DNA of 64,000 bases, taken from NCBI GenBank assembly GCA_012845835.1, contig JABAKD010000016.1, forward strand, positions 10,475,007 through 10,539,006. The letters run 5' to 3'. This DNA comes from Undaria pinnatifida. Lineage: Eukaryota > Sar > Phaeophyceae > Laminariales > Alariaceae. Numbering within the stretch: position 1 is the stretch's first letter; each line of letters begins with the position of its first letter. The notes beneath the pieces were generated by a model. The model ran no database searches. It was not told the DNA's origin and saw only the letters and a list, made by a program, of their open reading frames with translations. Of this stretch, positions 11,081 to 59,309 are shown piece by piece. A program made the translations under genes and the position numbers.

Positions 11081-11349
11081 TGTGAAATTAAAGGTGGGGG
11101 GCACAGAGTGCCCCCTGCAGGTCTGCCAATTGAGCAGGTCTTCGGAGAGTACTCACTTTCGTTCCTTCGTAGAGATGTAGCTTTATTCGTTTCCACCAGA
11201 GCCCGGGATAGCTTCTGAGATCGGAGGCGCGTGCCTCCGATCTAATTCCTAACTTCCCCGAATATAAACCGCCAACCTTATCATACGAAACCCATCCAAA
11301 TGATCTCAAAATCGGATACCTACAGGCCTTTCGAGGCCGTATCTTAACA
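11081..11349 (-). repeat. 3' LTR of the gypsy element
   Basis: A 269 bp terminal repeat, intact. It holds a 26 bp inverted repeat at its centre (AGATCGGAGGC and its complement) and an AATAAA polyadenylation-type signal on the minus strand (within CGAATAAAGC). It matches 27068-27280 base for base by eye, except for a 5 bp addition near 27075. Confidence 0.9.
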
Positions 11350-12205
11350 CTAGCCCACCCTGATGAGTCGCATATGCAGAAATATGGGAGATTCGGGGAA
11401 ACTCCGGTTCTACGAACTAGACTATGAGTCGAAGATGCGGCTCCTCAAACCCCACTCCCACACCTCTAACCGTCTGGCTATGGAGCCAGGAACACGCGAA
11501 GAAAAGCAGTAGAAAGAAAAGCAGACCCTACAGCAAGGCAATAGTCACCCATCAAAAACCTGCCGCATGCCGCCGGTGTGGCGGGGGGGGCAGAAAAGGC
11601 TCTAGAACCTGCCGCATGCCGCGGGTGTGGCGGGGGGGGCAGGAAAGGCTCTACGGTAAACCAATCACAGACAAGGTACTATGGCGAGGCGAGCCCTCGT
11701 CGATATGGAGGGGAACACAGGCGCTAACACAAGGGAGAAGTCATGCGAAAAACCTCCCGCGGGCCATCGGCAAGGCGGGGGGTTAGACGAGGAAACGACG
11801 AATACCCGGGATGGAAGTTGTCAACACATACTGCCCCGCTAGGGGAGGAAGTATTTAGACGACAAAAAAAAACAAAGCAGAACAAATACAACACACAAAA
11901 CATAAAAGAAGACACACAGACCCGTATACTGGTCGCCCCCCGGCTCTGGGCTGAGGAGGGCGTCGGCAGGGCGAATTTGAACTATGACAAAAAGACGGCA
12001 ACCCTGCGCCTCAGATAGCGGCGTTTTTCCCGAACCCTGACCCGGCACTGAGCAGGGGGTTCGGCAGGACAGAAAAAAAATGGAAAGAACCGCCCCAAAA
12101 CTCGATGAAGACCCTGAGGACACTACGAACGACCCAAAGACAAAGACGCAAAACTCATACCTCAAAAAAATGAAGAACTATCGAGAAGCGGTGGTGGCTT
12201 GGAAG
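11350..12205. other. 3' untranslated region of the gypsy element
   Basis: No coding match. A 49 bp unit (CCTGCCGCATGCCG, then GGTGTGGCGGGGGGGG) is repeated at 11559 and 11608, with a worn third copy near 11745. Next to the LTR, the minus strand reads CAGGGTGGGCTAG, a short weak polypurine tract. Several A-rich runs lie at 11860-11910 and 12070-12180. Confidence 0.55.
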
Positions 12206-12910
12206 TCAACTGGCCACGGCCGCGCCTCGAGATTCGTCTACGTTACGTTGGATTCCCCGAGGAAACGCACTGGCGATGTGAACTTGCAAGCACCAAGAGC
12301 CTCGTACGGCTCCCGTTGAAGTCGTGTAGCGCGCCGGGGGAAGAGGGAGTTTAATCGGTCCCGGGTCGTCCAGAAAGCGGACCAGGTATACCTTGTCCTC
12401 GGTAGTGCTCGCGCTGATTTTTCCTAGCCACCATAAACCATCGTCTCCCTTGTACCAAAAGTGGGCTCCCTTAGGAAGTATGGTGTCGTGGTAGCGACGG
12501 AGCCAATCGGTGCGGGAAACACAGGCGTAGCCCGGCGCTAGGAAACGTTCCCCGTTGTTGCGGGAGAGCTCACGCTGTGCCGCCCCGATCCGCATTCGGC
12601 GGTAAAGGCGGTTGGTTTGGCGGTGCTGGTCCGGGGTTCCGGCCCAATAACGCAAGATGTGGGAGCGGGAGAGGTGAAGGTCCATTTCCCGCTCCCAGGA
12701 CGGTTCGGAGAGTCCCGCCCAATGCGTCTTGTATAGCACCGCGATGACGCCACCTCGCCCCCGTACCGACTGATGACCAGTGATCTGCTCCACCTCCAGC
12801 CGTTGGAGGGGAGTCGAAACGTCGTCTTGAGTGACGTGGTACGGCGGGGACTTCTTGGAAAATTTGTTGAGCACATACTGTGTCAGCCCCGCCGGTAGGT
12901 ATTTGGGCAT
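12206..12910 (-). CDS. Integrase C-terminal chromodomain with SH3-like tail
   Basis: It has an ATG at 12910 but is more likely the continuation of integrase in a shifted frame. Residues 38-90 match a chromodomain: LEVEQITGHQ, then a beta strand, KTHWAG (equivalent to VKWKGY), SEPSWE (equivalent to ENTWEP) and a C-terminal helix SRSHILRYW. Two of the three usual aromatic-cage positions (W64, W72) are present. Chromodomains on gypsy integrases direct insertion to marked chromatin. A second compact beta-rich segment at about 146-195 (KGAHFWYKGDDGLWWLGKI, then YLVRFLDDPGP) resembles SH3/Tudor-like folds in its spacing of aromatics. That second call is inference. Confidence 0.8.
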   Translation of the reverse strand: MPKYLPAGLTQYVLNKFSKKSPPYHVTQDDVSTPLQRLEVEQITGHQSVRGRGGVIAVLYKTHWAGLSEPSWEREMDLHLSRSHILRYWAGTPDQHRQTNRLYRRMRIGAAQRELSRNNGERFLAPGYACVSRTDWLRRYHDTILPKGAHFWYKGDDGLWWLGKISASTTEDKVYLVRFLDDPGPIKLPLPPARYTTSTGAVRGSWCLQVHIASAFPRGIQRNVDESRGAAVAS

Positions 12911-15528
12911 GTCCCCGCTGTCGTGGGGGTTGGCCAGGGTTTGCAGCGCTCGATAGCCACACGCCGACGAGCGTCCGAACCAGGTAAGTCGGAAGGGAGA
13001 TCCAAATAAAGGAGGTTGCTCCCGAGCGGCGAGCCGTCCGGGGTCTCGGCGGCGGAGCAGGGACCGACGGCCAGGACCTTGTATGGGCCCGTCCAGTTAA
13101 GCGCGAGTTTGGCCTTGAGTACCTTGGCGTCGGTATTCGCTTTCACACCCTGGCGGATGGTAGAGGCAGAATTGTATACCCATGCCCAACCACCCACAGT
13201 GAAGTTAGGTGCTGGACGCAGCGCGTCGGCGAGGGCGGAGTTTCTGCGGTTAACACGGGAAACGGTGAGGGCGTGGTGTGCGCGGACAATGTCGTTCGCG
13301 CGCTTTTGCCGGTCGGTGGCCAAATCGCAATAGGCCAGGTGGTCACGGGCCAGATTCTGGTGTCCCACGACACCTTTGCGGTCGAAAATCGTCAGGGGGA
13401 GCCGTGGGAGTCTGCCCATGTGGACCTCGTTGGGCGCCAAACCCGTCGCCGCGCTGACAGAGTTGTTGTAAGCGAATTCGACGTGGGGCAGATGCAAGTC
13501 CCAGTCGTCTTGTCGCTCGTTGACGACCATAGCTAGCATTTGTGCCATAGTGTGATTTACCCGCTCAACGCCCCCGTTACAGTTGGGATGGTAGGAGCTT
13601 GTAGCAAGCTTGTGTACACCTAACAGCTGATATACAGCTTGTGAAAGCTTGGAGCAGAACTGCAGTCCGTTGTCCGAGAGTATGGTGCGCGGGCACCCCC
13701 ACAAGGGGATGTATTGGTTCACCAGGATATTGGCTGTACCTTCCGCCGTGAACTCAGCGGCAGTGACGGGGAACATGTCGGCCCGACGACTGAAGCGATC
13801 GGTGAACAGCAGGATGTAGGTGTTGCCTCGCGGTGTGACCGGAAGGGGGCCGAAGTAGTCAACACTGACGGCGATACCTGGACCTTCCGGCAGAGGCATT
13901 GTGATGATGGGCCAGCGGACAGTCAGCCGTGGGGTTTTTCGCGCTTGGCACTTCAAGCAGTGGCGAAGCCACCACCGGGTACACACACTCATGCCAATCC
14001 ACCAATAAAAACGCTCCAGCATGCGCAACGTGCGCGTGGTGCCAAGGTGGCAGGAGGCCGTCGAGTGGCAAGCTTGCATGATCCAAGGGCGCATGAGCAG
14101 GGGAACGTAGATGTGAACTGGCTCGTTGTTTAGCAAGCAAGCAGCTCGCCCCACAGAGTTCGGTTTGTCAGAGCTTGTTTGCGGGAGTGTCGGTTTACGG
14201 ACGAGCAGGACAACGTCGTCGTCGGTTGTATGTAGTCGACCCTTATCCGCCAGTTCCTGGATGTCTGAGAGAGAGGGACGCTTGGGCGAGGGGTAGCATG
14301 CCAAGAAGTCCGGTGGCAGGGCCGACGGCCGGCCGATAGAGATGTAACGTATCGTGGCGTGGCACGTCGGCTCTGCGTGTTGTTCGCGCTTCCAATCAGC
14401 ATGTGAATAACGCGCGACGGAATCCGCGAATCGCAACTCAGCAGCGTCGCCGAGGGCATCCGACCTTGTAAGTGTAGCCGGCGTTTCACCAGGAGGAGTC
14501 GTAAGCCGTAGGAGCGGAGTTCCCATAGGCTCTGCGTGGTCGTGGTCGGACGGAAGTGGTACCGTGCGGGCCGGCGGGTCGGCAAGAGTAGGGGTCGCGG
14601 CGACTGACGGAGCCGACCGCGGCCGTCGGGCTCGCGGCGGAGTTGTAACTCGTCTGGGCGATGACTGGGGAACCCCGCCGGGCCCGAAGCCATAGTCGAC
14701 AGCAGGGGGTGCCTTACCAGCTGCTGTAGCTGAACGCCGGCGCGTCCGAGTGGAGATGCGGTCCGAAAAGGGCGTCATCGTCTGGGGCGCCGGAGATCCA
14801 GGCGAGGTTGGGACGGGCGCGGTCGGGCCCCTGGGCTCGACGGGGTTTGTCCCTTGTACCGAGCTCCGGGAAGGAGTCGGTTGGGCCACTGATGTCGTGG
14901 CAGCCGGGGCTTCGGCGGAGTCCTCGTTGGTCATGATGGGTACAGCAAAAACCGAAGCGAAATTGTAGTCGGCTGTACGCGAGCCCCCGCCTCGGCCGGG
15001 CGAGCTATCGACGGTGGCGGTGGATGCAGAAACACGAGCGACGAATCTCCTGGAAGGAGCAGGAAGGTCGTCAAGCCTCATACGTGGACCGTGTGTGCGA
15101 AAATCGCAAAAGTCGGCAAGAGTGAGAGGAAGCCCACCTAAGGCATTACTTTCGGTGCGGGGCATTAGCCCACCCAAGCCGACACCCGGTATCGGAGAAG
15201 AAGGAGTGTACAGCCCGCAAGCCCGTATGAGGTATATACCACCATCCTCAACAGGGGTAAGGCTCGTCGAACCATTGCGGTCGTGTTCCGTGGCAGGCTC
15301 CGGCAAGCGAGACAGGAAGCCAGCGTTGCCGTTTGCGCTTCCTTTTCGGTATTCGAGGGTGTAATCGAATGCGGTGAGGAACTCGAGCCATCTCTGGACT
15401 CGGCCGTTGTGATTCCCCACTTTGCCTATGTTTTCCAGAGCCTTGTGGTCTGAGAATATTCGGAACTTGGTGCCCCAAAGGTAGCCGCGGAGGCGCTTGA
15501 GAGCCCAGACGATGCTGCCAGCCTCCAA
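12883..15528 (-). CDS. pol: RNase H C-terminal half and integrase
   Basis: The meaningful sequence starts at about 15528 (LEAGSIVWALKRL), although the frame is open to 15696. RNase H continues with FRIFSDHKALENI and a closing motif reading ANGNAGFLSRLP, where family members normally have Asp in place of the Gly before FLSR. A ~330-residue Pro/Ser/Arg-rich insert follows. Integrase has an HHCC zinc domain (H544, H550, C580, C583 of the open frame) and the catalytic triad D613, D675, E711 with the D,D-35-E spacing (VDYFGP, LSDNG, GGVERVN). A GPY-type module (LNWTGPYKVL) lies near residue 870. The frame overlaps the chromodomain frame by 28 nt. Confidence 0.92.
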   Translation of the reverse strand: MEAGSIVWALKRLRGYLWGTKFRIFSDHKALENIGKVGNHNGRVQRWLEFLTAFDYTLEYRKGSANGNAGFLSRLPEPATEHDRNGSTSLTPVEDGGIYLIRACGLYTPSSPIPGVGLGGLMPRTESNALGGLPLTLADFCDFRTHGPRMRLDDLPAPSRRFVARVSASTATVDSSPGRGGGSRTADYNFASVFAVPIMTNEDSAEAPAATTSVAQPTPSRSSVQGTNPVEPRGPTAPVPTSPGSPAPQTMTPFSDRISTRTRRRSATAAGKAPPAVDYGFGPGGVPQSSPRRVTTPPRARRPRSAPSVAATPTLADPPARTVPLPSDHDHAEPMGTPLLRLTTPPGETPATLTRSDALGDAAELRFADSVARYSHADWKREQHAEPTCHATIRYISIGRPSALPPDFLACYPSPKRPSLSDIQELADKGRLHTTDDDVVLLVRKPTLPQTSSDKPNSVGRAACLLNNEPVHIYVPLLMRPWIMQACHSTASCHLGTTRTLRMLERFYWWIGMSVCTRWWLRHCLKCQARKTPRLTVRWPIITMPLPEGPGIAVSVDYFGPLPVTPRGNTYILLFTDRFSRRADMFPVTAAEFTAEGTANILVNQYIPLWGCPRTILSDNGLQFCSKLSQAVYQLLGVHKLATSSYHPNCNGGVERVNHTMAQMLAMVVNERQDDWDLHLPHVEFAYNNSVSAATGLAPNEVHMGRLPRLPLTIFDRKGVVGHQNLARDHLAYCDLATDRQKRANDIVRAHHALTVSRVNRRNSALADALRPAPNFTVGGWAWVYNSASTIRQGVKANTDAKVLKAKLALNWTGPYKVLAVGPCSAAETPDGSPLGSNLLYLDLPSDLPGSDARRRVAIERCKPWPTPTTAGTCPNTYRRG

Positions 15529-17279
15529 ATTAGAGGAGTCCAATGCCTTTCCGAGTCGAGCGTAGCTCGACTGATGTATGCGATGGGTTTTATGGAGCCG
15601 TCCGTCTGCTCCTGTTCGAGAGCGGCTCCGAACCCGTCGATGCAGGCATCGCAGTACACATGGAACGGGCGAGTGCCGTCGGCGACGGCGTCCCAATCAG
15701 GGAAAACGAGGACCGGCGGGGTCGTGAGCTCCGCCAAGATTTCTCTCACCAACTTCTCCATATCAGGCGTGAAGGCAAACTTTACCCCCTTCCGAAGGAG
15801 TGCGTTAATAGGACGAAGTCTTTTCGATAAGTCGGGCAAAAATTTGCGGTAATAGTTGATACCACCCATGAGTGCGCGCACCTGCTTAACGTCAGTGGGC
15901 ATCGGCATATTGGTCAATGCCGACACTTTTTCCAAATTTGGGCGTAGGCCTGCTGGAGAAATGGAGTGGCCTAGAAAGTTCGCATTGGTAGCGCCCAAAC
16001 GCGCCTTCGAGGGGGAAAGCTTGAGATTGTGCTTTCGAAGGCGTTCGAAGAGAGAGCGAATCGTCCGAACATGCGATACCGGGTCGGAGTCGAACACGAT
16101 GACATCGTCGAGGTAAGCTGCCACCTGTGTCAAACCCTTGATCACCTCATTGATAACCTTGACGAACCACCCAGGCGAGGCGCTGCTGCCCTGGGGCATA
16201 ACGAGCCACTCATAAAGGCCCGTGGGTGTGCAGAACGCTGTAAGGGGAACTGTGTCCTTGTGTGCCGTTATCTGGTGGAACGAGGAAACCAAGTCGAACA
16301 GGGAAAACACCCGACCTGAGCCCAAGGAGTCCAGGACCTGGTCCACGCGCGGAATCGGCAGTTGACTGAGCTTGCTAATTTGTTTGAGCTTCTTGTAGTT
16401 CACCGTGATCCTCACACCGCCAGATTTCTTCGGGATGACCACCAGCGGGCTCGAGTACGGTGAGGTCGAGTGCTGAATCAGCCCAGCCGCGAGGTACTGG
16501 TTAAGGGTCGCGTCCACTTCTCTGGCCAGTATAGGGTTTATGCGATGGGGCCGTGAAGTGGCCGGAGCGCTGCCCTCCGGAACCGAGATTTCAAAGGGCA
16601 TTAGGGAGCATGACCCAAAGTCCGTCTTCGAGGTGGAGAACACGTCAGAAAAGTCGCAGAGCACATCCCCCAGTTGCTCAATGGTCGGGGGGTCCCAACC
16701 AGGGTCGTGTAAGTCGAACGCAATCTCCCGCAGGTGCGGTGGGAGTCGGGCCCAGACGCGTAGAAATGCAGCACGTTGGACCGGGTTCAAACGTTCCATA
16801 AGCGTCGGCGAGGGCGACGGTACGGCGGGAACTATCTCCTCCGCGCCGGTCGGGCTCGCGACCGCAGAGACCTGGCTGTCCGAAGTCTGGCCAGGGTGAG
16901 GACCCGCAGCCTCGATAGGGTGTTGCAAGGCACCCAGCGGGATGCGCAAAAGTGGGGCGTCGGCGACCCCGATAAGGTCGCCTGGCTCGAGGTCCGCGAC
17001 ACCTATGACGGGAAGCACCTGTCGTCCTGAAGCAACAAAGTGTTTCTGTCCCGAAAGAACATCCGGCTGCGGCAGTATGTCGACAAGATAGTGTCCTGTG
17101 AGCGCAGGAAAGCCGTTACTGCGCACCAAGTTGACCTCGAGCAGTTGGGGCTCGTCCGACAAAGTGACGCCTGTAGAGCCATCATAGCGAAGATGGAAAG
17201 CACCGTTCGATGCTGCGGGGTCGACGGCATAAGCCGCTACGCCTGCTGTGGCGTGGTGGGACAACGTCAGCTCGCCCAA
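15426..17279 (-). CDS. pol: Reverse transcriptase and start of RNase H
   Basis: A 617-codon frame without an ATG start. It continues the protease end, probably through a -1 shift or indel. RT lies at about residues 255-440, with a VVIPKKSGGVR-type finger, FSLFDLVSSFHQI (first catalytic Asp), a MPQG motif and YLDDVIVF (catalytic Asp pair, residues 390-392). The connection ends in NFLGHSIS and YYRKFLPDLS. RNase H begins at about residue 540 with VYCDACIDGFGAAL and runs to ERHWTPL near residue 582. After that the reading frame is wrong and the match jumps to the next frame near 15530. The final ~35 residues are therefore out-of-frame sequence. Confidence 0.93.
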   Translation of the reverse strand: MGELTLSHHATAGVAAYAVDPAASNGAFHLRYDGSTGVTLSDEPQLLEVNLVRSNGFPALTGHYLVDILPQPDVLSGQKHFVASGRQVLPVIGVADLEPGDLIGVADAPLLRIPLGALQHPIEAAGPHPGQTSDSQVSAVASPTGAEEIVPAVPSPSPTLMERLNPVQRAAFLRVWARLPPHLREIAFDLHDPGWDPPTIEQLGDVLCDFSDVFSTSKTDFGSCSLMPFEISVPEGSAPATSRPHRINPILAREVDATLNQYLAAGLIQHSTSPYSSPLVVIPKKSGGVRITVNYKKLKQISKLSQLPIPRVDQVLDSLGSGRVFSLFDLVSSFHQITAHKDTVPLTAFCTPTGLYEWLVMPQGSSASPGWFVKVINEVIKGLTQVAAYLDDVIVFDSDPVSHVRTIRSLFERLRKHNLKLSPSKARLGATNANFLGHSISPAGLRPNLEKVSALTNMPMPTDVKQVRALMGGINYYRKFLPDLSKRLRPINALLRKGVKFAFTPDMEKLVREILAELTTPPVLVFPDWDAVADGTRPFHVYCDACIDGFGAALEQEQTDGSIKPIAYISRATLDSERHWTPLIWRLAASSGLSSASAATFGAPSSEYSQTTRLWKT

Positions 17280-18287
17280 ACCCGATTATCGAGAGGACGA
17301 GGGGGCAGGGCGCGGTACGAACGGATGTTGAAGCGCATCCAACTGTCGCGGCCCAGCAAGACAGCGTGCTGCATGACCGAAGGAGGGACCACGCATGCCC
17401 ACACCGCGAGAGAGCATGTTGGTTCTTTTTTGAGGAAGAATTGAACGCTCAGACGGATGTGGGTCGCGGTCCGTAAAGGGGCGGATTCGCCAAAGCCACC
17501 CCAGGAGCGAGGGCTGCTAGGCCGCTCGCACGTCGATGAGGCGGCGCCTACCGATAGCATACGATCCAACACGTCACGACGGATGAAGGTTTGGGGGGAG
17601 CCAGTGTCAAGCAGCGCTGTACATATGTAGGGCGCAATAGCGTCCCCTCCGCTATGTATTGCAATATCGGTAGTGAAAGAATCGTCGTCCAGGGTCACGG
17701 TACCCCCAACGAGGCAGGGGCCATGTTCTGGCAGTGCGCGGTCTGAGGCGCCGCGAGAAGCTACCGCCAAAACCTCCGGGCTTTGATCGGCGGGTGTACC
17801 CGAAAAATAGGCCGAAGGAGGGCCTTGGGCAGCGCCGACCGCGGTCCCCAAGCGCGACTGCTGAGCGGACGAAATTTCATGGATTCCAGCATTCCCGGTG
17901 GGCCTGCGGAATCGACGAGGGGAGGCCGGGTGTGGCGATCCGTCCTCGCAGTCGCGAATTGCTTCGCGAACGGCAGAGAGTGCCTCACCGAGCAAATTTT
18001 TTCCTCTCCACTTGTGTGGATCCTTGGCGTGGGGGTCGTCCGCCCGGAGACCAATACCCCACACAGTGTCTAGAGGACTGGCCTCTGCCAGAAATTTGTT
18101 GCCAGTGCTCAAAAGGTGATTTTTCATGGCTGGGTTCTGCGTAAATTTGGCATAGTTGCCAGATAACACGGCATTTTGCTTCTCCCTGTCCCAAACGGCG
18201 GCGTCAAAATTGCGCACACCTCGACCGACGCGTTTGTGTGTGCTGGGGTCAGACGATGACATGATGAGCTCCACTGCGCGATGGTCT
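17267..18287 (-). CDS. NADAR domain, C-terminal part, and aspartic protease
   Basis: It opens without an ATG and continues the NADAR fold: SSSDPSTHKRVGR, then VRNFDAAVW, GNYAKFTQNP, LAEASPLDTVWGIGL, and WRGKNLLGEAL about 100 residues in. These are in the family's order and spacing, ending at about 17950. After a ~100-residue spacer comes a retropepsin-like aspartic protease: catalytic LLDTGSPQTF at about 17610 and the second conserved ALLGRDSW-type motif (VLLGRDSW) at about 17350. The protease would process the Gag-Pol precursor. The frame ends 13 nt into the RT frame, which is reached by a -1 shift. NADAR between Gag and protease is not part of standard Ty3/gypsy organisation. Confidence 0.88.
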
Positions 18288-18725
18288 TTAAAAAGCCGCC
18301 TTTTCAGCCATCATAAACTGCTCCGCGCAAGAATATGAGACGTCGTCGACGACAAACGACGAAGGAGACCACTGCGAGAAAAAGGACGGCGGTTGCCAGA
18401 ACAACACTACTTTGTCTGTAGAGTATTCGAGGGAAGGGTCAAAAGTCGACGGTGCCAACCCGTCGGAGGCCGTGTTAGGTATATGAGCTTGTAATGTCCC
18501 CGTCTGGGGACACCAGTCTCTGGCACTTTGGGCCTGCAGTGTCCCCGTCTGAGAACGCCCGGCCTCGGGAGCACGGCGCGAGCCCGAACCCACGGGTGGT
18601 CGCGTCGTGGCCTTGTCGCTCTTTGGCGTAAAATCGCAAGGAACTGCTCTCACTGCACCCGAAGGGACAGGGGGCTCGGAGCTGTTACTGAGACGACGAG
18701 AGGCGCGATTCTTCCGTATCTTCAC
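18288..18725 (-). CDS. NADAR domain, N-terminal part
   Basis: The last 45 residues match the start of the NADAR (YbiA/DUF1768) fold: LFWQPPSFFSQWSPSSF, then a VVDDVSYSCAEQFMM stretch and MAEKAAF. In this family the FxN/Q-F-S and CAEQxMMxxKA motifs line the nucleotide pocket. The first 100 residues are linker with a short duplicated QTGTLQA. The frame stops at TAA (18290-18288) in the middle of the domain. The rest of the domain continues in the +1 frame directly after a run of five T on the coding strand (18294-18290). NADAR proteins cleave N-glycosidic bonds: riboflavin-pathway intermediates in YbiA/COG3236, and ADP-ribose on guanine in DarT1-linked NADARs. Which applies here is unknown. Confidence 0.85.
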   Translation of the reverse strand: MKIRKNRASRRLSNSSEPPVPSGAVRAVPCDFTPKSDKATTRPPVGSGSRRAPEAGRSQTGTLQAQSARDWCPQTGTLQAHIPNTASDGLAPSTFDPSLEYSTDKVVLFWQPPSFFSQWSPSSFVVDDVSYSCAEQFMMAEKAAF

Positions 18726-19560
18726 GAGAATAGCGTCCAGCTGATCGGGCTGGAGGCCGTGGCGTCACCACTGGCCCGTTGCGCAGTGTCGGATCTATAT
18801 CCTGTGCCACTGGGGCAGACGTAGCCTGATGCACGTGGGTTAGCGTGCTTAAAGACGGAGCAGGGTCCGTAGACCCTGTGGGCGTCTTCGAGAGCGGGGC
18901 TCGGGCAAGCGGAAATAAATTCTTCGCCCGAGAGGGCTCCTTCCCGTTAGCCTTCTTGGAGGAGAGAGACGAGGTAGCTAAGCTTGTCGGCTCCTCCTTG
19001 ATGGGAAAAAGGATAGAGCGCCCGCTACTATCGCGAGGAGACACCGACTCAAATCTTGGAAAAGATCTCGGTGCATATGGGGTGGCTTTCCCACACCTCA
19101 AGCCAACCGCCGCTTTACGGTCAGGAAGAGGTGGAGACGAACCCGTTCGCGTATGGGGGCGACGCGTCGTCGCCGCAGTTTTCTTGCTGCGCGACGCGTG
19201 CCTTAGGGGAGCGTGCAAGGTGCAGGCTCCTGAGTCATGGTTAAGGGGGGCAGCGTTAGGGGCGCGTGCCTCCGTTGTCGAGCTTGAGCCACGGCAGGGG
19301 TTAACGGCGTTGGAAGCACTGGTCCCCATTGCCGAACTCGGACCATGATCGAGGGGGGCGTCACTGTGGGCGCACACCCCCTTCGTAGAAAATGTAACCT
19401 GGCTGGGGGGGGGCATACTGGGAGCCCTGGTCCCCACCGCCGGCACTGCGCCGTGAAAGTCATCAGGCGCCGTAGGAGCCGTTGGGCTCTTGACAGAAGT
19501 AATTTGTGCCGCGCCACGTGTAAGGCGAACGACAGGCACACGAGCATCTTGTGAAATCAA
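18685..19560 (-). CDS. Pro/Ser/Thr-rich linker between Gag and NADAR
   Basis: About 290 residues of low complexity, rich in Pro, Ser, Thr, Ala and Arg, with short semi-repeated blocks (SSTTEARAPNA, SSAMGTSASNA) and no recognisable fold. It is in the same frame as the preceding fragment but separated from it by a stop near 19624. It overlaps the next frame (NADAR, N-terminal part) by about 40 nt in +1 register. In a working element it would be part of a long Pol precursor. Such disordered linkers are common between retroelement domains. Confidence 0.5.
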   Translation of the reverse strand: MISQDARVPVVRLTRGAAQITSVKSPTAPTAPDDFHGAVPAVGTRAPSMPPPSQVTFSTKGVCAHSDAPLDHGPSSAMGTSASNAVNPCRGSSSTTEARAPNAAPLNHDSGACTLHAPLRHASRSKKTAATTRRPHTRTGSSPPLPDRKAAVGLRCGKATPYAPRSFPRFESVSPRDSSGRSILFPIKEEPTSLATSSLSSKKANGKEPSRAKNLFPLARAPLSKTPTGSTDPAPSLSTLTHVHQATSAPVAQDIDPTLRNGPVVTPRPPARSAGRYSREDTEESRLSSSQ

Positions 19561-19623
19561 AGGAAGTGTCTCCGACAGTGCCGTCGGCGTACGGGTCGGG
19601 TGTGCCGTACCGCCGTCGCCCTG

Positions 19624-19959
19624 TCAGTTGCCAGTGCGAAAGGTACCTGGTTGGCGCGCGTTGGGGTTTCCGCTCGGATTGTGGGTTGCCCCGAAACGTT
19701 TCCCCGGAGCAGACACGGAAGCCGAGGAGGCTGGCGAGGGCGGGACAGCACCTTGTTGGCCAGGCGTGTATGTGCTGTTGTTGTTACCGCTGTGGCTGTT
19801 TGTCTGTCCCTGATCCCCGTGGGTACCCTCGTGATTAGTTTGAACGATTTCGGCGATTTTTGTTGTACGTTTGCGAGCGAGAAGAGCGTCCGTCGCGGCG
19901 GTAGCTAACCATACGTGCTTGCCACCGTCGGAAAACGTCATCATCGCCAAGTTGGCCAA
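19624..19959 (-). CDS. Gag-linker continuation frame
   Basis: This frame overlaps the gag end by 125 nt in +1 register and begins with no ATG, so it could be reached only by frameshifting or after an indel. It encodes a short hydrophilic stretch rich in Gly, Asn, Ser and Pro and stops at 19624. I see no domain. It may be the start of the linker that leads to the NADAR and protease regions. Confidence 0.4.
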   Translation of the reverse strand: MANLAMMTFSDGGKHVWLATAATDALLARKRTTKIAEIVQTNHEGTHGDQGQTNSHSGNNNSTYTPGQQGAVPPSPASSASVSAPGKRFGATHNPSGNPNARQPGTFRTGN

Positions 19960-22576
19960 GTTCAGGGTTTAGACAGCCACTGGCGTTGATAAAGGGATGC
20001 CTACAGTTGCGTAAGGAATGAGTGTCTTCGTGACAGTTTAGGCAATGACCCCTGTTTTCTCGGAGAGCCGCGGCGCGGGCAGAGGGCGTGAGGAGGCCGC
20101 TCCAGAGGGGAGGGTCGTCGGTCTTAAACGAGGCACTAACAGCGAAAACTTCTGCATAGTGTTGTTCTTCTAGGGGCCAGCAGTTGGACATTTTGTCGAG
20201 CCAGGGGTCGGTGGAAGCAACAATCGGCATGACAATCGGATTATTGCTCGAACCCGTCTGCCAAGAAGGCGACTGGGACAGCACTCGGCCCTGGCCGCGC
20301 CCATGAACGACGGGCCGGGGCCCCGACGGGGCGGATGACCGCGATCCCGTCGAAGAAACAGGTAGAGAAAAATGTTTTTCGCCGTTGACGGCAGGTGTCT
20401 TATTATGCGCCAAGTCACTGAACGCTTTCCTCATGGCATCTAACGAGGCGTATGGCCGTGGGTCCGTAGCCTTCGAGCCAGGGTATAACGTAGGCATGAG
20501 CGTCGGAAACTGCTCGTTGACCGCCATCCTAACCACCTCCAGCACGACATCCGTCCCCGGGGACAAAACACGCTCACTCCCCGTGACTGCCGATACTAGC
20601 ACACGGAACTCCCGACTGAAATCAGAAAAAGGCGTGCCGTTACACACTCCAAAAGTGTGCAACTTAGTGTAGCCTTCGCCCGTGTCGACCCGGTCAAAGT
20701 GCTTCACGAGCAGGCGTAGCAGGAGGGTGAAAGCCTCGGGCCCAGATGCTCCTCCGTCCAACGCTCTTGACACCTGTCCAAAAAAATCGTCGATCAAGGT
20801 GGTCATGCGAGCGGTCGTGGGCCTGTCAGGTGTTATGGCACGATTGAATGCCAGGCGGAGGGGGCGGATCCAACCGGGAACCCACGCGGGGGCACGTACA
20901 CCCTCTTGGCAACGGTCGTCATAGCGCATGAGTATGTCAGTCATGGCAGACCGAACCGAACGTGTGAGTTGCTGTGTGCCGTCAGACTTGTTCAAAGAGG
21001 CGGGGAACGGTAGCACAGAAATGCGTGATACGTCCTTGTGGGAGAGCTTAACATAGGCGCGCCTAACCGAGTCATCGAGCGTGGATTTAGCTAGAGCCGC
21101 GGCGGTAGCAAGTTCGGCGGTACGCTCGCGAGCCAAATCCGAAGAAACAGGCTTGGTGTGGTCACCCGACACAGTTAGTTTGCTCAGCCGGTCGGCGGAC
21201 GAGGCAATATCCACCAGGGAAGGAGTTACTTGCCTCCTGCCAGCTACCACGGTCACCTCCCCGTGGTCCGTGTTCGAGCTCGAAGACGAGCGGGAGGACG
21301 TTGACGACTCGTCCCACGCTGAGGGCCCTCGTGTGCTGTTTCGCCGTCCTCCGGTGCCTCCTCCCGAGCTGCGACCGCCGCCCCGGTTGGTTCGGGCCTG
21401 GTTGCTCCCTTGGCGGCGCTGTGGGCCACCACCCGTACCCGACGCTCCTCCCGCGCTTCCGCCACCGTTGCCACCACCGCGGCGATTGTGGTGGCCACCA
21501 CTCCCACCGTTTTCCCCGTTTCCCCCACTCTGGCCGCCACCACCCCCGGAGTTGCCACCTCCACGGTTGCGGTCCCCCCGATCACGGCTGCCACCGCGCC
21601 GCTGTTTGGTGGAGCGCCTTCCTTCCAGCGCTTCCTTTGGAGTCGGCCACAGGACTGGGTCAGGGGCGTCGTCGTGGGCCAATCTTAAGGCTTTGACCAA
21701 AGCGAGGGTAGGTGCTCGCCTCATCTGCCCGAAGGCGGACGAGTTGTCCCGGCGAGCCCAGACTGCTCCGACCGAAAGGTCTTCCGCCTTGAACGACGAC
21801 CGTCGCTCTGAAGATAGAAGGGCCTTGGCCGCTGCTATCACCGCCTCCGCCAGATGCGCCGAGAACTCGACCCTCGGCGTGGTAGCCATGTACTGGACGC
21901 TGCCAGACATGAAAACGTCGTCCCCGGGTCGTGTATCTTGGGAGGCAACACTCAGCGGGCGCGCCGAGGAAGGGGCAGCTCTCGCCGGAGTCGATGTAGC
22001 TGAGAGGGCAACGGCTTGGCGTGCCCTCTCGACCGCGCGGGATGCCTCACGAGCAGCGGCCCTCGCCTGGTCGATGGCGTGATCCTCACGGCGTCGACGT
22101 TCGTCATCTAGACGTTTGCGTTCCTCTCGTCGAAGCAGGGTCGCATTGGCTTCGTCGAGAGCTCTTTGGGCCCGAGAAATTTCAGACTCTGAGTCTAAGG
22201 GGCCAGCATGGGAGCGCTGGTCTCCGTAGCTCTGGGGAAGGCGCTCTGTCGAGCGCGGAGAGGTCAGATGTCGACGGTGGTGCTCTGAGGACAGCTGGAG
22301 ATGCTCCCTCGAGGCTGGGGATATTTGTCGTCGTGATGTCTCCGCGCCCGGTAGGAGTTTTTCCGCCTCGTCGACCGGCGAGTCGGGGTGGTCAGACGGT
22401 GTGCCGTGTTGTTGACTCGTGTTGGAGTCACTATCGTCGTCCAGGTTTTCGGCGCGTCCTCCTCGTCTCGATTCGCGGGACCTCGAGCGTTCCCGTCCTT
22501 CTCCCTGGGCCTCCTGGATGGGGCGCGCGGAGGACCGCAGCCTGCCCGAGTAGCCCCCATCGTCGCTGGTGGACAT
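19835..22576 (-). CDS. gag: Gag polyprotein of the gypsy element
   Basis: It should form the virus-like particle and bind the element RNA. I start it at the first ATG (22576, MSTSDDGGY), giving 913 residues. The N-terminal third is charged and rich in Arg, Glu and Ala, with a probable coiled coil at about residues 110-190. A long Arg/Gly-rich stretch follows (about 340-430), resembling RGG RNA-binding tails. The middle (about 520-760) is the likely capsid part. Near the C-terminus a zinc knuckle reads CLNCHEDTHSLRNC, exact CX2CX4HX4C spacing. The frame ends about 40 residues later. A +1-shifted frame overlaps the last 125 nt and continues into the linker. Confidence 0.88.
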   Translation of the reverse strand: MSTSDDGGYSGRLRSSARPIQEAQGEGRERSRSRESRRGGRAENLDDDSDSNTSQQHGTPSDHPDSPVDEAEKLLPGAETSRRQISPASREHLQLSSEHHRRHLTSPRSTERLPQSYGDQRSHAGPLDSESEISRAQRALDEANATLLRREERKRLDDERRRREDHAIDQARAAAREASRAVERARQAVALSATSTPARAAPSSARPLSVASQDTRPGDDVFMSGSVQYMATTPRVEFSAHLAEAVIAAAKALLSSERRSSFKAEDLSVGAVWARRDNSSAFGQMRRAPTLALVKALRLAHDDAPDPVLWPTPKEALEGRRSTKQRRGGSRDRGDRNRGGGNSGGGGGQSGGNGENGGSGGHHNRRGGGNGGGSAGGASGTGGGPQRRQGSNQARTNRGGGRSSGGGTGGRRNSTRGPSAWDESSTSSRSSSSSNTDHGEVTVVAGRRQVTPSLVDIASSADRLSKLTVSGDHTKPVSSDLARERTAELATAAALAKSTLDDSVRRAYVKLSHKDVSRISVLPFPASLNKSDGTQQLTRSVRSAMTDILMRYDDRCQEGVRAPAWVPGWIRPLRLAFNRAITPDRPTTARMTTLIDDFFGQVSRALDGGASGPEAFTLLLRLLVKHFDRVDTGEGYTKLHTFGVCNGTPFSDFSREFRVLVSAVTGSERVLSPGTDVVLEVVRMAVNEQFPTLMPTLYPGSKATDPRPYASLDAMRKAFSDLAHNKTPAVNGEKHFSLPVSSTGSRSSAPSGPRPVVHGRGQGRVLSQSPSWQTGSSNNPIVMPIVASTDPWLDKMSNCWPLEEQHYAEVFAVSASFKTDDPPLWSGLLTPSARAAALRENRGHCLNCHEDTHSLRNCRHPFINASGCLNPELGQLGDDDVFRRWQARMVSYRRDGRSSRSQTYNKNRRNRSN

Positions 22577-23019
22577 GGTGCCTAGGTGTAGTGAAGGGGG
22601 GGGGGTAGGAACGACGCGTGAAGAAGCTATGGAGACAGATAAATTGTTGTGGTGTTCCTGCTCCAAGGAGCGATATATCTGTGTTTCAGCAAACAGCAAC
22701 AATATGGGCCTTAAAGCCGTCCAGCCTTAGTGATGGTAGCAGCCACGTCAACTAGCCGTATAAGAGGAGTACAGCAGTAACAAGGTACCAATCATCATAA
22801 CCGCAACATAAGAGCAGCGCCCAGTCTGACCGTAGGGTATATGGGTAACGCCCGCACGAACCGCAGCACAAGGAGCCAAAACTGGGCAGCACTGACCCCA
22901 ACCGCAGTGCAGGGGGTGCAACACAGTAAGGGTACGTCTGCAGCCATCGCACTTAAACAGGCATCATTCGACCTAGGCTGGGGGAGGTAGCACAGGAGAG
23001 CGTCGCCCAAAACGCCCAC
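22577..23019. other. Leader between the array and gag
   Basis: It contains decayed relatives of the 84 bp unit (to about 22950), then about 110 bp directly before gag. On the minus strand the open frame extends upstream of the gag ATG to 22702 but has no further ATG. Confidence 0.5.
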
Positions 23020-24520
23020 GCTCATCGGACCAAAACGGGCAGCATTTACCTTAGGTGTAGTGTAGGGGTTATCACAAAAAAGGTTCGCCCAACACGCCGA
23101 CGCTCAGCGCATCAAAACAGGCAGCATTTACCCTAGGTGTAGTGTAGGGGTGGAGCACAGTGTAAGATCGCCCAACACGCTGACACTCAGCGCACCAAAA
23201 CGGGCAGCATTTACCCTAGGTGTAGTGTAGGGGGGGGAGCACAGTGAAAGGTCACCCAACACGCTGACACTCGTCGCACCAAAAAAGGCAGCATTTACCC
23301 TAGGTGTAGTGTAGGGGTGGAAGCACAGTGTAAGATCGCCCAACACGCTGACACTCATCGCACCAAAACGGGCAGCATTTACCCTAGGTGTAGTGTAGGG
23401 GGGGGAGCACAGTGAAAGGTCACCCAATACGCTGACACTCGTCGCACCAAAACAGGCAGCATTTACCCTAGGTGTAGTGTAGGGGGGGGAGCACAGTGAA
23501 AGGTCACCCAACACGCTGACACTCGTCGCACCAAAACGGGCAGCATTTAACCTAGGTGTAGTGTAGGGGTGGAAGCACAGTGTAAGATCGCCCAACACGC
23601 TGACACTCATCGCACCAAAACGGGCAGCATTTACCCTAGGTGTAGTGTAGGGGGGGGAGCACAGTGAAAGGTCACCCAACACGCTGACACTCGTCGCACC
23701 AAAACAGGCAGCATTTAACCTAGGTGTAGTGTAGGGGGGGGAGCACAGTGTAAGATCGCCCAACACGCTGACACTCATCGCACCAAAACGGGCAGCATTT
23801 ACCCTAGGTGTAGTGTAGGGGTGGAAGCACAGTGTAAGATCGCCCAACACGCTGACACTCATCGCACCAAAACAGGCAGCATTTACCCTAGGTATAGTGT
23901 AGGGGGGGGGAGCACAGTGTAAGATCGCCAAACACGCTGACACTCATCGCACCAAAACGGGCAGCATTTACCCTAGGTGTAGTGTAGGGGTGGAAGCACA
24001 GTGTAAGATCGCCCAACACGCTGACACTCATCGCACCAAAACGGGCAGCATTTACCATAGGTGTAGTGTAGGGGGTGGAAGCACAGTGTAAGATCGCCCA
24101 ACACGCTGACACTCATCGCACCAAAACGGGCAGCATTTACCATAGGTGTAGTGTAGGGGTGGAAGCACAGTGTAAGATCGCCCAACACGCTGACACTCAT
24201 CGCACCAAAACAGGCAGCATTTACCCTAGGTATAGTGTAGGGGGGGGGAGCACAGTGTAAGATCGCCAAACACGCTGACACTCATCGCACCAAAACGGGC
24301 AGCATTTACCCTAGGTGTAGTGTAGGGGTGGAAGCACAGTGTAAGATCGCCCAACACGCTGACACTCATCGCACCAAAACGGGCAGCATTTACCATAGGT
24401 GTAGTGTAGGGGTGGAAGCACAGTGTAAGATCGCCCAACACGCTGACACTCATCGCACCAAAACGGGCAGCATTTACCCTAGGTGTAGTGTAGGGGGGGG
24501 AGCACAGTGAAAGATCGCGC
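23020..24520 (-). repeat. 84 bp tandem array in the gypsy leader, about 18 units
   Basis: Units start near GCAGCATTTACCCTAGG at 23121, 23204, 23288, 23372, 23456 and so on, with a period of 83-84 bp. Because 84 is 28 codons, a long frame of 28-residue repeats is open on the minus strand. It lacks a convincing start and ends with the array. A distinctive variant (GGTATAGTG with CGCCAAACACG) recurs at 23891 and 24229, showing a higher-order four-unit duplication. The array lies between the primer-binding site and gag, where packaging and translation signals normally sit. Confidence 0.9.
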
Positions 24521-25813
24521 AGCCAACCGTATAAAAATGGGCAGCATCTACCCCCACAGTAGTGTAGTGGGGGGTAGGACAGTATACGTTCGCGCACCAA
24601 CCGTAAAAAAAAAAACGGTCAGTGTAACCCCCCAAACAAAGTAGTTTCCCCCGACCGCACTGAAGGGGGACGGTCGCGCCTACAGTAGTGCTGATTGCTG
24701 TAGTATCACTGCTGTGTTCACAGATAACGGTAATTTCAACCGCACCAAGATGGGTAGTGTAGTACCAACACCAGCTGTAGAAAAATGTGCACGCTCACAA
24801 TCGAATAGAAAGGCTGTTTGCCCTTAAAGGTACCGCATTAAACGGGCTGTTCTCCACTGCACTAGTAAAAACTGTGAAGCGCAGTATCTCCGCGAACTGT
24901 GTCGTAAGCGCTCTGTAACGGGCAGTAGCTGTCCGAACATGTGCAGAGAAGAAGAAAAAAAAAAAATCCAGCGTAGACCCTAGCAATATCGTGAAGGGCA
25001 GCACATGTACCGGCAGGAAGACGGCCTAACGCCCGGACAGCTGAAAAAAAAATCCGTACCCACTCCCACCGATAAAGGGACAGTTACGTTGACAGCAGTG
25101 CGGAGTGCCGCACGGTCACAGCTGTGCATACACAGAAAGTGGTATTATAGTCCCCGCGTACCCATGAATGGGAGAATATAGGGCATCGCACACACCAACA
25201 GCCTTGCCCAAAAAAAGCCAGCACAGAGTTTCAGCGTTCACTAGGTTCAAGTTCTAGTCACGGAGGGGCCAGGACGAAAAAAAAAACCTCTCGAATCGAA
25301 CTTGCAAGGAGCACTCGCACAGCAGTGGGGGCTGTCAGAGCTGCGGTGCTGTAACTGTGGACGCTGGGGCAGTGAAGGGTCGAGCTATGTGGTGTATGAG
25401 CAGGAGCAAAGTAGGCGGCTTGGCTGCTGTACCATGACTTCTACAGCAGAGAATCCGGCGGTATATGGCAGGCATTGAGAGCGAGCCCATTGTGCTGCAC
25501 TGTAGTTGGCACCTCTGCAAAAATGATGGTGGTTGAAGCTACGCGACGGACAGCAGTAGTGGAACGCTGTTGATCGAGAAAGATCGGAGAGGGGTCCGAG
25601 GTGCCAAATTCGTAGCTTGTACTAATTTCGGCAGAAAGGGGGCACAAGGGCAGATGCTTGTTCGACGCACAAGAATGATCGACGTACGTACTGAAACCCA
25701 TACGATAACGCGTGTACTGGAAAATTTGCCAAACGAAAAAGCCCAAACATTCCACGAGCACCGCCTGTTTCTTCCCAGGTAGATCACAAAGGAAGGAGCC
25801 CCGACATGAGCTC
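24521..25813. other. Gypsy leader, degenerate repeat and unique sequence
   Basis: The first part (to about 24800) holds worn relatives of the 84 bp unit (GGGCAGCAT, AGTGTAGTGG). The remainder has scattered A-runs and short antisense frames. I see no gene. Confidence 0.5.
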
Positions 25814-26557: not shown

Positions 26558-27280
26558 TGTGAAATTAAAGGACCCCCCTGAAACGGCGGGATAGCAGGTC
26601 GGCTGGATATACGGGCGGACCTGTCATTTATCCAAGCCGTTCCATTCCCTGGGGTACCAGGGAGAGTATTTTTCAAGTTCGACATGGGGAAAATCTGAAA
26701 AGTTTATTATTGTGGATGGTGGGGATCGAACCCACGACCCAAAAACCCATGGTCTGTCGACGACGCCATTTGTTAAGGTTATTAGTGGGATATTAGTCCG
26801 TTTGACCACTTGCAAAAGGTTAACCAATAGCTTACCCAAACTAAGCCTTATAACACTCTCCCCCCCTGAAACGGCGGGATAGCAGGTCGGCCGGATATAC
26901 GGGCGGACCTGTCAATATATCCAAGCCGTTTCATTTCCTGGGGATACCGGGAGAGTATTTTTCAAGTTCGCCATGGGAAAATCTGAAAAAGTTTATTATG
27001 GTGGATGTGGGGATCGAACCCACGACCCAAGAACCCATGGTCTGTCGACGCACATTTGTTAAGGACTTTAGAGAGTACTGTACTCACTTTCGTTCCTTCG
27101 TAGAGATGTAGCTTTATTCGTTTCCACCAGAGCCCGGGATAGCTTCTGAGATCGGAGGCGCGTGCCTCCGATCTAATTCCTAACTTCCCCGAATATAAAC
27201 CGCCAACCTTATCATACGAAACCCATCCAAATGATCTCAAAATCGGATACCTACAGGCCTTTCGAGGCCGTATCTTAACA
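26558..27280 (-). repeat. 5' LTR of the gypsy element, chimaeric with TRIM sequence
   Basis: The two ends match the 3' LTR: 26558-26572 and about 27068-27280. The 47 bp that should lie between them is replaced by about 495 bp of TRIM sequence: an incomplete TRIM body, a full 85 bp TRIM LTR (26771-26855), a second body, and 15 bp of another TRIM LTR (27057-27071). LTR pairs arise from one template, so this difference arose during or after integration. Confidence 0.8.
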
Positions 27281-28586
27281 CTGTGCAGTTCACACGCATG
27301 GCATGGTGTCCCTGGCGTCAGGTGTACAACAGTTGGGGACGGTATCGCAAAACCTCCGAGCGTTCAGAATGAAATCGAAATTCCGGAAAAGCGAGCTGGG
27401 CGAGGCTGCCTTCTTCCATTCCGAAATATAGACTACGCAAACAAGTTTACGACAACAAAATTATTGCTTCAAAAAGTTACCGGCAAATCGATAGATAGGC
27501 CTACAGCAGTAAGTTTTTCATCCTACGAGTAAAGGTGCTAGCAGAGCTGTAAGCCGGCTGGATTTCACGGGTGCTCTCGAGTATTACCCGGTTTTCTAAA
27601 ACCCGTCACGGGTACGAATAGCATTTTTTACTTGCCGAGTTTTCGGGTCCCGGGTACCCGGGTTTGCTCGGGTATCCGGGTATCTGATTGTTTATTTAGG
27701 ACACTCCGAGGACGGCAATGTATCATTTCCTAAACCACATCGTCTGCAAGTACCTCGTGCATATTATCACCCAGGAAACCGATTTCAAAATGAGAAATGA
27801 TGTCTCACATTTAAATTTAGCGTTTCACACCATGCTTCGTACACCACACATATCCCCCGCCAATAGCATCGGGGTATGTGCTGTCTGAACGGCAGCGCAA
27901 TGAGCATGCTACAACAACAACAGCAGTCCAGCATACGTCCAGCAGGACTAGCAGGATAACAGCCGAGGATCGAACTTGACGGAGGATGAAAGCGAGGCTT
28001 TACAAAGTTTTTCCGACGTTGCCGCACATTCGGACAGCAGCAGCCGCATTCGATTTCTACTCATAACATGATGGTTTTCACCCTCGGTTTTCCGTCTTTT
28101 ATTTTTGGTAGTTTGCATGCTTGAGGTTTCGGCACCGTACACATTAGCACCACTCGCATCCCTTTTTTTTTGTCAGGTTTTTTAGCCTCGGTATTTCCCC
28201 CCTCTTTGTTATTTTCATGCCATCTCTTTGCAGGTTACAGCAGCACTCGTAATCGTTTGGTTTACCGCTCACTGGGTGTTCTTGCGCCTGCTTTGTTATT
28301 AGACATCCCTGAGCTATTATTTACTGGGGACCCGGGTACTCCGCTGCTAGACGGGTACCGAGTAGTTGGCTGCCAGACGAGTACCCGACTGTTAAACGGA
28401 CACCCGGAGACGAGTACCCGACTGTTAAACGGACACCCGGATAACCGTCCAAGTTACCCGGAAATTAGTACGAGTACCCGGATATTTCCCCCCATGCCAG
28501 AAGTTGGCGTGTACGCTCTTCACACGGGTGCTTGGCGGAAATGGCCATTATTAGCCATATATAACTAAAAACGACAGGTACATAAC
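27281..28586. repeat. Remainder of duplicated segment copy A, with ACCCG/CGGGT clusters
   Basis: Up to about 28100 it matches copy B at 50100-50960. Two stretches (27560-27690 and 28320-28490) are dense in CGGGTACCCGGGT-type words. A 33-34 bp unit (GACGAGTACCCGACTG and on) is tandemly repeated at 28376-28441. No protein gene is supported. Confidence 0.55.
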
Positions 28587-57918: not shown

Positions 57919-59309
57919 TTAGGAATTCTGCGCTGGTTCTTCCCGGAAATTTCGGGATACTTCATCCCGGACGAGCCCAATGCGTCTCGTTTCACCACTA
58001 CCAATCAGAGAAATAACCGAAAATGCAGCTGGATTTTCACTGTCTCTCAATGTACGAGATAACCCGTCGTAGGTCCAAAACCCCTGCTTTTTCCCAACCG
58101 TCAGTGACGCTATGGAAAGCAAAGCTACCAAAGATACCAGAATGCATGCCAGGGGGACAAACCACGACCGTATCAGCGTAGAGTCACGAGTGCCTTTCTT
58201 GAATGTGTAAAGTTCAGGTTGGGTACTCTTTTCCGTCTCCGTGTAGGTCACGCCATCATAGGAAAGATCAGGCCAGTCCTTCTCGGACCCCTGTGGGTTG
58301 TAGTACATCAAAGCCGACCCGCTCGTGATTTCGCTCTGAAACCACACACTGGAGAAGAAGTACACGTCGCCAAGGGTGTCATCGAAATACCAAGCCTCCA
58401 TTATCAACACTATGGACACAATGCCCGACAGGGAATACTCAGAAGATCTGTAATGACCTTGCAAAAAACGGCCGGATAAAGATTTTGCGTCTTCGCTATG
58501 CTCCATGCTGTTTGATAAAGAATACACGTAGTATCTATCTTCTTCCGATATCGATATGCCGGTGACACCACTCCGTGTAATGTTTACAAGGACAACCGGG
58601 GAGTCTTCTCCTCTGAACGATGTCCCCGAACCGTACGAGATAGTGACATTCCGACCCCACACGGAGGCTGCAGCTCCAGGTACGTACCCCCAAGAGGCGT
58701 CTTCGTATCTAACCTGTTCGGTTACAGAATCCATTGGAATTTCAAGGCTTCCAGCAGCATCTATGGACCACTCTGCCGAACCAATCCAAGATGACGCGTG
58801 CACTCGAATACGTCGAAGGTTTCGATTGACTTCTCAGAAGAATTCACGGCTATGGCCGGATACTGGTTTTTAATCATGTAAAAGTCGGAAGTAATTTCCG
58901 TAGTGATACACGACCCAATGGCTGCGTCGAAGAAGTAGGGCAGAGGATAATCACCGTCCAAAAATATACTGCCATTGCCATATCCAAAACGACGCCCGCC
59001 TCCGAGAACCACGGAGGGCATTACGGACGACAGAGGTTCAGTGAATCCCAGAACACCGAACTCCAAAATGAAAGCTGCCAACCAAACCAAGATCGTCAAA
59101 AACTTGGTAAAGAAACCGGACCAGTTATAAACCTTGTTGATGGACCTCGTACTGACTTCGATGGATTTTCCACTCCACACAGAATCAAGCAAGGATTTCC
59201 CAATGAGTCTGGGATAGACAAAGGAGAAGATTACCCAATTAACTGCGGCTAGTATGAGCGTCAAAACACCACCGAAGATGTCGCTCGAAAGGCCGAAGAC
59301 CATCGCCAT
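57919..59309 (-). pseudogene. Membrane protein, tandem paralogue 2 (frameshifted, lacks last exon)
   Basis: Starts at 59309 (MAMVFGLSSDIFGG) and aligns with paralogue 1 throughout: LGGGRRF near residue 100, FECT, IGSAEW, SWFVPLA. The reading frame shifts between FECT and IGSAEW at about 58785-58800, where the copy has either two extra bases or one missing base relative to its neighbour. The downstream frame then runs to 57919. It ends with a divergent hydrophilic tail, and only 92 bp separate its stop from the ATG of paralogue 1, so the C-terminal membrane exon is missing. Sequencing error could explain the frameshift but not the missing exon. Truncation by tandem duplication is my preferred explanation. 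Confidence 0.75.

Follow-up and report, generated by a model that had tools for sequence, protein, structure and literature searches.

What does a NADAR domain do inside the polyprotein of a retroelement? The question is raised by a Ty3/gypsy element of ~16.1 kb on the minus strand of contig JABAKD010000016.1 of the brown alga Undaria pinnatifida. It lies within the stretch of 64,000 nucleotides that was analysed here, which we call the window and whose positions are used below. Retroelements seldom retain an extra enzyme, and retention over diverged families names a step of replication that is needed or a defence that has to be undone. The known substrate of the family, ADP-ribose on guanine, makes the role directly testable. 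As described below, the NADAR-gypsy fusion is real and repeated in the genome, and the active-site residues of the domain are mostly kept. We tentatively propose that a YbiA-type NADAR, made by readthrough as the first folded domain of Pol, acts within the particle as an N-glycosidase on element RNA or cDNA.

The NADAR domain and its copies in the genome

The first-pass annotation, made from the letters of the window alone, had reported five NADAR motifs between the Gag and the protease of a Ty3/gypsy polyprotein. All five are present on the minus strand where it had placed them, and its coordinates are right; they are refined here to 17954-18401. The element is bounded by two identical direct repeats of 203 bp, and its parts, in its own reading direction, are leader, Gag-like open reading frame (ORF) with CCHC motif, linker, NADAR, protease motif, reverse transcriptase (RT), RNase H and integrase. 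The features are as follows (L009 is a copy with an open Pol frame; LTR, long terminal repeat).

27080..27282, minus strand: 5' LTR, 203-bp direct repeat, 100% identical to 11149-11351
19835..22702, minus strand: Gag-like ORF of 955 aa with a CCHC zinc-knuckle motif close to its end (ORF and motif read directly)
19624..19626, minus strand: UGA at the Gag-Pol border, one frame on both sides (junction pattern match G000:C22:10494619-10494651)
18402..19623, minus strand: N-terminal linker of Pol, ~400 aa, with little conservation and a single frame change in the window copy
17954..18401, minus strand: NADAR domain, frame-split in the window copy (Pfam PF08719)
17279..17704, minus strand: aspartic protease region with an LLDTGS motif (called by motif; extent by alignment with L009 Pol)
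15960..16436, minus strand: reverse transcriptase RVT_1 (Pfam E 9.9e-27)
15367..15773, minus strand: RNase H, over two frames in the window copy (RT_RNaseH in two ORFs, E 3.7e-10 and 8.5e-13)
13585..14103, minus strand: integrase zinc-binding and core domains (PF17921, E 3.2e-12; PF00665, E 9.6e-8)
12662..12796, minus strand: weak chromodomain-like match at the C-terminal end of Pol (PF00385, E 0.02, 15.3 bits, under the cut-off of 25.1)
11149..11351, minus strand: 3' LTR, 203-bp direct repeat (repeat comparison)

The profile search of both frames that the first-pass annotation had suggested was carried out with Pfam NADAR (PF08719, cut-off 35.1 bits), and the domain does lie in two frames, as that annotation implied. 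The C-terminal piece, residues 2-107 of ORF window:17270-18274, matched profile positions 59-163 with an E of 2.4e-35 and 122.7 bits. The N-terminal piece, residues 109-144 of ORF window:18291-18725, matched positions 2-50 with an E of 8.7e-6 and 26.5 bits, which is below the cut-off on its own. Within the scanned ORFs these pieces occupy 18294-18401 (N) and 17954-18271 (C), and the C frame opens at 18310. The PADLOC candidate defence profile PDC-M42C, which carries no description, was also matched (150 and 131.5 bits).

We then turned to the whole genome (511 Mb in 68 contigs), where 150 NADAR places were scored of 1454 candidates. All 150 were above the Pfam cut-off. Among the open frames that hold the domain, nine are of exactly 2473 aa and five of exactly 2371 aa. 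We read two of the families in more detail: family A (L009), which includes the window copy, and family B (L010). In L009 as in L010, a single frame carries the matches to NADAR, RT, RNase H and integrase; the NADAR matches reach an E of 4.3e-50 (170.6 bits) in L009 and 1.8e-48 (165.3 bits) in L010, and the integrase core is just under its cut-off (31.2 and 31 bits). Gag is open in L010 and lies in two frames in the L009 copy. NADAR heads Pol in both families; its distance from the UGA that ends Gag is ~410 residues in A and ~320 in B. Between A and B, identity is 81% in RT, 55% in the protease regions, 47.7-49% in the NADARs and 29% in the linkers.

The frame of the window copy is broken within NADAR, which would fit a chance insertion, a separate host gene or an assembly join. 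The last two were among the outcomes that the first-pass annotation had named as fatal to its claim. All three are ruled out for the family by the 150 scored places, several of them in long open frames; two of these frames proved to be Pol. Related NADAR-protease proteins also occur in other assemblies. This explanation is refuted for the family, and we regard it as extremely improbable. A programmed +1 frameshift at the break was considered as well and was ruled out, because other copies carry the domain in a single frame. The window pol consists of five frame pieces, as compared with the open family A Pol, and one of the borders falls within NADAR.

A family of elements with NADAR alone was also considered and rejected. 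Eight loci were fetched. L075 matched both the protease and the RT of family A, and the other seven (L072-L074, L076-L079) matched neither. These seven align to L009 around a gap and look like deletion derivatives with broken frames; they retain the linker, NADAR and later parts of Pol. In all seven, the NADAR match in one frame reaches only to residue 147 (of 170), and in six of them it continues in another frame. The number of NADAR matches is not the number of complete elements, since some matches sit in such apparent derivatives.

The window element itself is Ty3/gypsy by its LTRs and by the order Gag, protease, RT, RNase H and integrase, with the protease called by motif (the Pfam Peptidase_A2B match is weak, E 0.24). 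Its integrase core (PF00665) scores 32.7 bits against a cut-off of 32.6. It does not qualify as a chromodomain gypsy, for which PF00385 has to exceed its cut-off; no PF00385 match at E <= 0.1 was found in the Pols of L010 and L009, both of which are incomplete at the end of the stretch. The Gag-like ORF is without a Pfam match and is shorter at its end than Gag of copy L004. No primer binding site was recognised in the element, and no target-site duplication was clear by eye.

Several observations concern the state of this copy and its leader. Although pol (12880-19840) is broken and Gag stops early, the two 203-bp LTRs do not differ; the copy may have been broken before a recent insertion, gene conversion may have acted, or the assembly may contain indels. 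The leader of ~4.4 kb includes an array of 84-bp tandem units at 22974-24624, just upstream of gag, of which 18 copies were listed in one family. Two stretches of the leader, at 26700-26840 and 26990-27046 (minus strand), resemble in sense orientation a tRNA 3' half, with T arm and acceptor strand; one of the two has CCA, and they sit in a segment duplicated ~288 bp apart. ARAGORN found no tRNA there, and the Rfam tmRNA matches were below the gathering score.

The UGA between Gag and Pol

In families A and B, Gag ends in UGA and Pol continues in the same frame. We scanned 28 loci, of which L004 is the same place as L009 and many are near-identical copies, and found the junction motif in 21, with TGA in 20 and two consecutive stops in one (L028). 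The genome-wide count, which covers family A only, gave 109 places with at most 3 mismatches; among the 100 listed, 91 have TGA, 3 have TAA and 6 have a sense codon. At the window UGA the flanking frame pieces are 19968-19627 and 19623-18688, a layout common to other copies. The stop is followed here by CAG or AGA (TGA CAG and TGA AGA). A single stop, one frame on both sides and conservation over copies and families are what readthrough calls for, and an in-frame stop with readthrough is a known route to Gag-Pol, gypsy elements included (PMC10085805; the sources cited by PMC number are covered here in part).

Since Gag and Pol share a frame with one UGA between them, we infer that NADAR should be made only within the minor Gag-Pol product and should enter the particle. 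Ribosomes would read through the UGA and give a minor fusion of Gag, linker, NADAR, protease, RT, RNase H and integrase. Judging from retroelement biology, the Gag part would take this fusion into the virus-like particle, where the protease would cut it, and NADAR would then work beside the reverse transcriptase.

Active site, selection and possible substrates

By sequence, the nearest of the solved structures is 8bau (E 8e-15), whose entry reads "NADAR domain-containing protein". We take it to be the Phytophthora nicotianae enzyme of PMC11543638, because its residue numbers match those of the paper once shifted by two. That paper describes how this oomycete NADAR contacts ADP-ribose and which residues are catalytic, and these positions were compared with 24 rows of retroelement NADARs, the long-branch rows P0073 and P0089 having been dropped. 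At the ADP-ribose site, the Glu of the EAS motif is present in 24/24 rows, the Asp in 23/24 (Val in the other) and the Trp in 21/24 (Arg in three). The first active-site Glu is found in 13 of the 15 rows with a letter at that position, with Lys in the other two and a gap in 9 more rows. The active-site Lys is found in 20 of 22, with a gap in 2 more. The Glu and Lys pair (E43 and K50 of the P. nicotianae enzyme) is mostly retained.

The last strand assigns the subfamily. By the rule of PMC11125620, a Glu there marks the YbiA type, as opposed to Asp or His. All 24 rows have this Glu, which was equated through the 8bau alignment with that of the EAS motif. The domain is of the YbiA type because of this residue, and not of the DarT1-associated type (BC4488). 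That type would have its catalytic Asp in this strand and DarT as its partner; none of the rows has the Asp, and a six-frame search of the genome gave no DarT match.

We compared rates of change along Pol. Between L009 and L017, the ratio of nonsynonymous to synonymous substitution (dN/dS) was 0.15 for NADAR (dS 1.38), as compared with 0.21 for the protease and 0.46 for the linker. In all, 14 comparisons were made, in which pieces in different frames were pooled and many pairs were too close to carry much weight. The NADAR ratio was less than 1 in 13 of them and lower than the linker ratio in 10. No NADAR ratio was obtainable between A and B, because silent sites are saturated. The nonsynonymous differences (pN) between the two families were 0.511 for the linker, 0.480 for the spacer, 0.374 for NADAR, 0.332 for the protease, 0.192 for integrase and 0.142 for RT. 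Taken together, these comparisons give signs of purifying selection on NADAR.

These data bear on the idea that the domain is retained for structure or for spacing within Pol, without catalysis. Some retroelement rows vary at single active-site positions, as such a role would allow. On the other hand, the residues are kept in most rows even though the NADARs of A and B are only 47.7-49% identical, and we consider a purely structural role improbable.

We return to an enzymatic role, in which the YbiA-type NADAR would have become a lasting part of Pol, as its first folded domain, in a lineage of Ty3/gypsy elements. Inside the particle it would hydrolyse an N-glycosidic bond in the RNA or cDNA of the element itself, chiefly that of ADP-ribose on guanine. 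The benefit would be the removal of a block to reverse transcription or of a mark placed by host defence; that the element may erase such ADP-ribosylation had also been suggested in the first-pass annotation. All four NADAR subtypes that were tested, among them YbiA, hydrolyse guanine-ADP-ribose in vitro; they came from E. coli strains and a phage (PMC11125620). A precedent for such a captured eraser is the AlkB enzyme of orchid gypsy elements (PMC9289625), which is taken up below.

Several points weigh against this proposal. In the same report, as far as it is covered here, E. coli YbiA gave no protection of cells against DarT1 (PMC11125620). A six-frame search of the genome, which can miss intron-cut genes, found no match to DarT (PF14487); in the control for this profile search, DarT was matched in 1 of 14 genomes. 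Among the ADP-ribosyl-transferase profiles searched, which covered some of the transferase families, one PARP exon was over the cut-off, and Tpt1/KptA gave three matches in a row that resemble the exons of a single gene. The name of TIGR02464 denotes a small-molecule activity (riboflavin-intermediate N-glycosidase). The first active-site Glu is replaced by Lys in 2 of the 6 family B-like rows. In 4 of the 14 comparisons the NADAR dN/dS equalled or exceeded the linker value, in one of the 14 it was 1.02, and between A and B NADAR is less conserved than protease, RT or integrase. Finally, folding of 119-120 nt from the UGA gave no RNA structure 3' of the stop beyond that of shuffled sequences (z -1.00 and 0.30).

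The first of these points also concern a pairing with DarT1, which the first-pass annotation had raised. Bacterial DarT1-NADAR pairs exist (PMC11543638, PMC11125620), and the domain might be an antitoxin-like antagonist of a DarT1 toxin from the host or a virus. The pairing is not borne out here: the genome has no PF14487 match in six frames (with the control matched in 1/14 genomes), the domain has the YbiA-type Glu and not the Asp of DarT1 partners, and E. coli YbiA fails to rescue cells from DarT1 (PMC11125620). Such an antagonist is very improbable.

An activity on small molecules has somewhat more in its favour. In this case the target, destroyed in the particle or in the cytoplasm, would be a riboflavin intermediate or a signal derived from NAD (for instance a variant of cyclic ADP-ribose), and the domain would protect reverse transcription or quench a host signal. 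TIGR02464 (NCBIfam; equivalog-domain cut-off 73.7 bits) is over its cut-off in families A and B, with 153.1 bits for L009 and 148.8 for L010. The window C piece scores 95.5 bits and the N piece alone 30.7; these are profile matches only. A preference of viral NADARs for soluble ADP-ribose derivatives has been put forward as a possibility, and argued for in the case of phages (PMC9503650). Against this, the NADARs that eukaryotic RNA viruses carry in polyproteins, by the polymerase as in the present element, are argued in the same paper to act primarily on macromolecular ADP-ribosylation, and packaging beside RT would bring no evident gain for clearing a diffusible molecule. We judge this activity unlikely.

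We give a similarly low probability to a role in RNA handling, in which the domain would process or bind the RNA intermediate (its ends, NAD caps or packaging) and would not act on ADP-ribose adducts. Processing of the RNA intermediate has been proposed by the authors who worked on Ectocarpus (PMC12477816), whose reading is near to this one, and NADARs have been associated with RNA-repair systems (PMC9503650). The kept residues, however, are the ADP-ribose-binding ones.

Origin of the domain and comparison with known systems

A protein search gave 376 matches, of which 120 were listed, nearly all from ENA. They include NADAR-protease fusions near family A and distant ones at ~40-49% identity over nearly the whole query; among the matches listed, some fusion-bearing contigs are up to 2.46 Mb long. 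Proteins of Ectocarpus, Pylaiella and Scytosiphon have a NADAR without protease or RT at 55-60% identity, and bacterial NADAR proteins of Nannocystis are at 56-61%. In the brown-algal cellular NADARs P0137, P0150, P0173 and P0202, the domain is preceded on its N-terminal side by a motif rich in Cys and His (PGCS..C, then H.(Y/F)C...HA).

In our trees, the NADARs of family A and of the distant fusions group with the brown-algal cellular proteins. Support for this grouping was 87/93 with Chrysoparadoxa inside, and 95/89 (65 rows) and 82/87 (62 rows, the long rows P0073, P0089 and P0305 dropped) without Chrysoparadoxa. Because of this grouping, the transfer from bacteria that has been published is not favoured for the family A group, and exchange with the algal host fits the trees better. 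No cellular NADAR of the host itself stood out among 150 places scored of 1679 candidates (query Ectocarpus P0137; highest identity 57%; rows not inspected singly), and capture from the host therefore rests on proteins of other brown algae. In IMG/VR viral contigs, 4 stretches matched the search pattern and none encodes a relative.

The family B NADAR falls among bacterial and environmental NADARs, which suggests a second capture, not a secure one. A single clade of all retroelement NADARs had a p of 0.0005 (62 rows) and of 0.025 (the same rows, with P0184 as a retroelement row). Three points count against two captures: the single clade had a p of 0.066 with 61 rows, one clade of retroelement and brown-algal cellular NADARs was not rejected (p 0.238 and 0.183), and the groups were named after the first tree had been seen. 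A protease tree of 19 rows did not settle the position of family B among the other groups. The full scenario would be that NADAR was taken at least twice, from a host gene into A and from another source into B, each time behind a readthrough UGA, and that the particles carry an eraser of guanine ADP-ribosylation. We regard it as improbable; if true, it would point to a new ADP-ribosylation-based defence against retroelements in these algae.

Two further duplications were seen elsewhere in the window. Two very similar divergent ORFs at 61940-62572 (minus strand) and 63005-63655 (plus strand) form an inverted duplication. Adjoining similar proteins, to which no family was assigned, are encoded at 56435-57826 and 57919-59309 (minus strand), the second over two overlapping ORFs.

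The first-pass annotation could not tell whether such a fusion had been described. It has: this kind of fusion is already published for the brown alga Ectocarpus, where a NADAR gypsy lineage with Gypsy-12_Ec32 was reported in Genome Biol. in September 2025 (PMC12477816). In the literature searched, which left preprints and most subscription journals outside, this was the only paper found to treat NADAR in retroelements. Likened by description and not by sequence, its domain order agrees with that of the window element. Its authors report a putative chromodomain at the C-terminus, and the present element has a weak chromo-like match; the Ectocarpus genome has 200 Mb and that of the present alga 511 Mb. 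It is also PMC12477816 that proposes the transfer from bacteria. With respect to the part of its main text covered here, supplements aside, the Gag-UGA-Pol layout, the selection test and the kinship to algal cellular NADARs are added by this work. The question raised is whether algae mark retroelement nucleic acid with ADP-ribose.

RNA viruses that bear a NADAR are not known to have a reverse transcriptase. The polyproteins of nidoviruses, hepe-like and picorna-like viruses likewise include a NADAR among their replication proteins, and differ from the present element in belonging to RNA viruses (PMC9503650). Tx1 LINEs of the Pacific oyster, as reported in PMC12477816, also have a NADAR in a retroelement, in ORF1; by the same account they are non-LTR elements with the domain at another place and divergent. 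The fission yeast elements Tj1 and Tosmo likewise have Gag and Pol in one frame with a TGA between them, but their stop context is TGA CT, and no NADAR is named for them in the part of the source covered here (PMC10085805). Orchid Ty3/gypsy elements with an AlkB m6A RNA demethylase are also large gypsy elements with a captured eraser of a nucleic-acid mark; there the enzyme is unrelated, is encoded in a separate ORF and has an activity demonstrated in vitro (PMC9289625).
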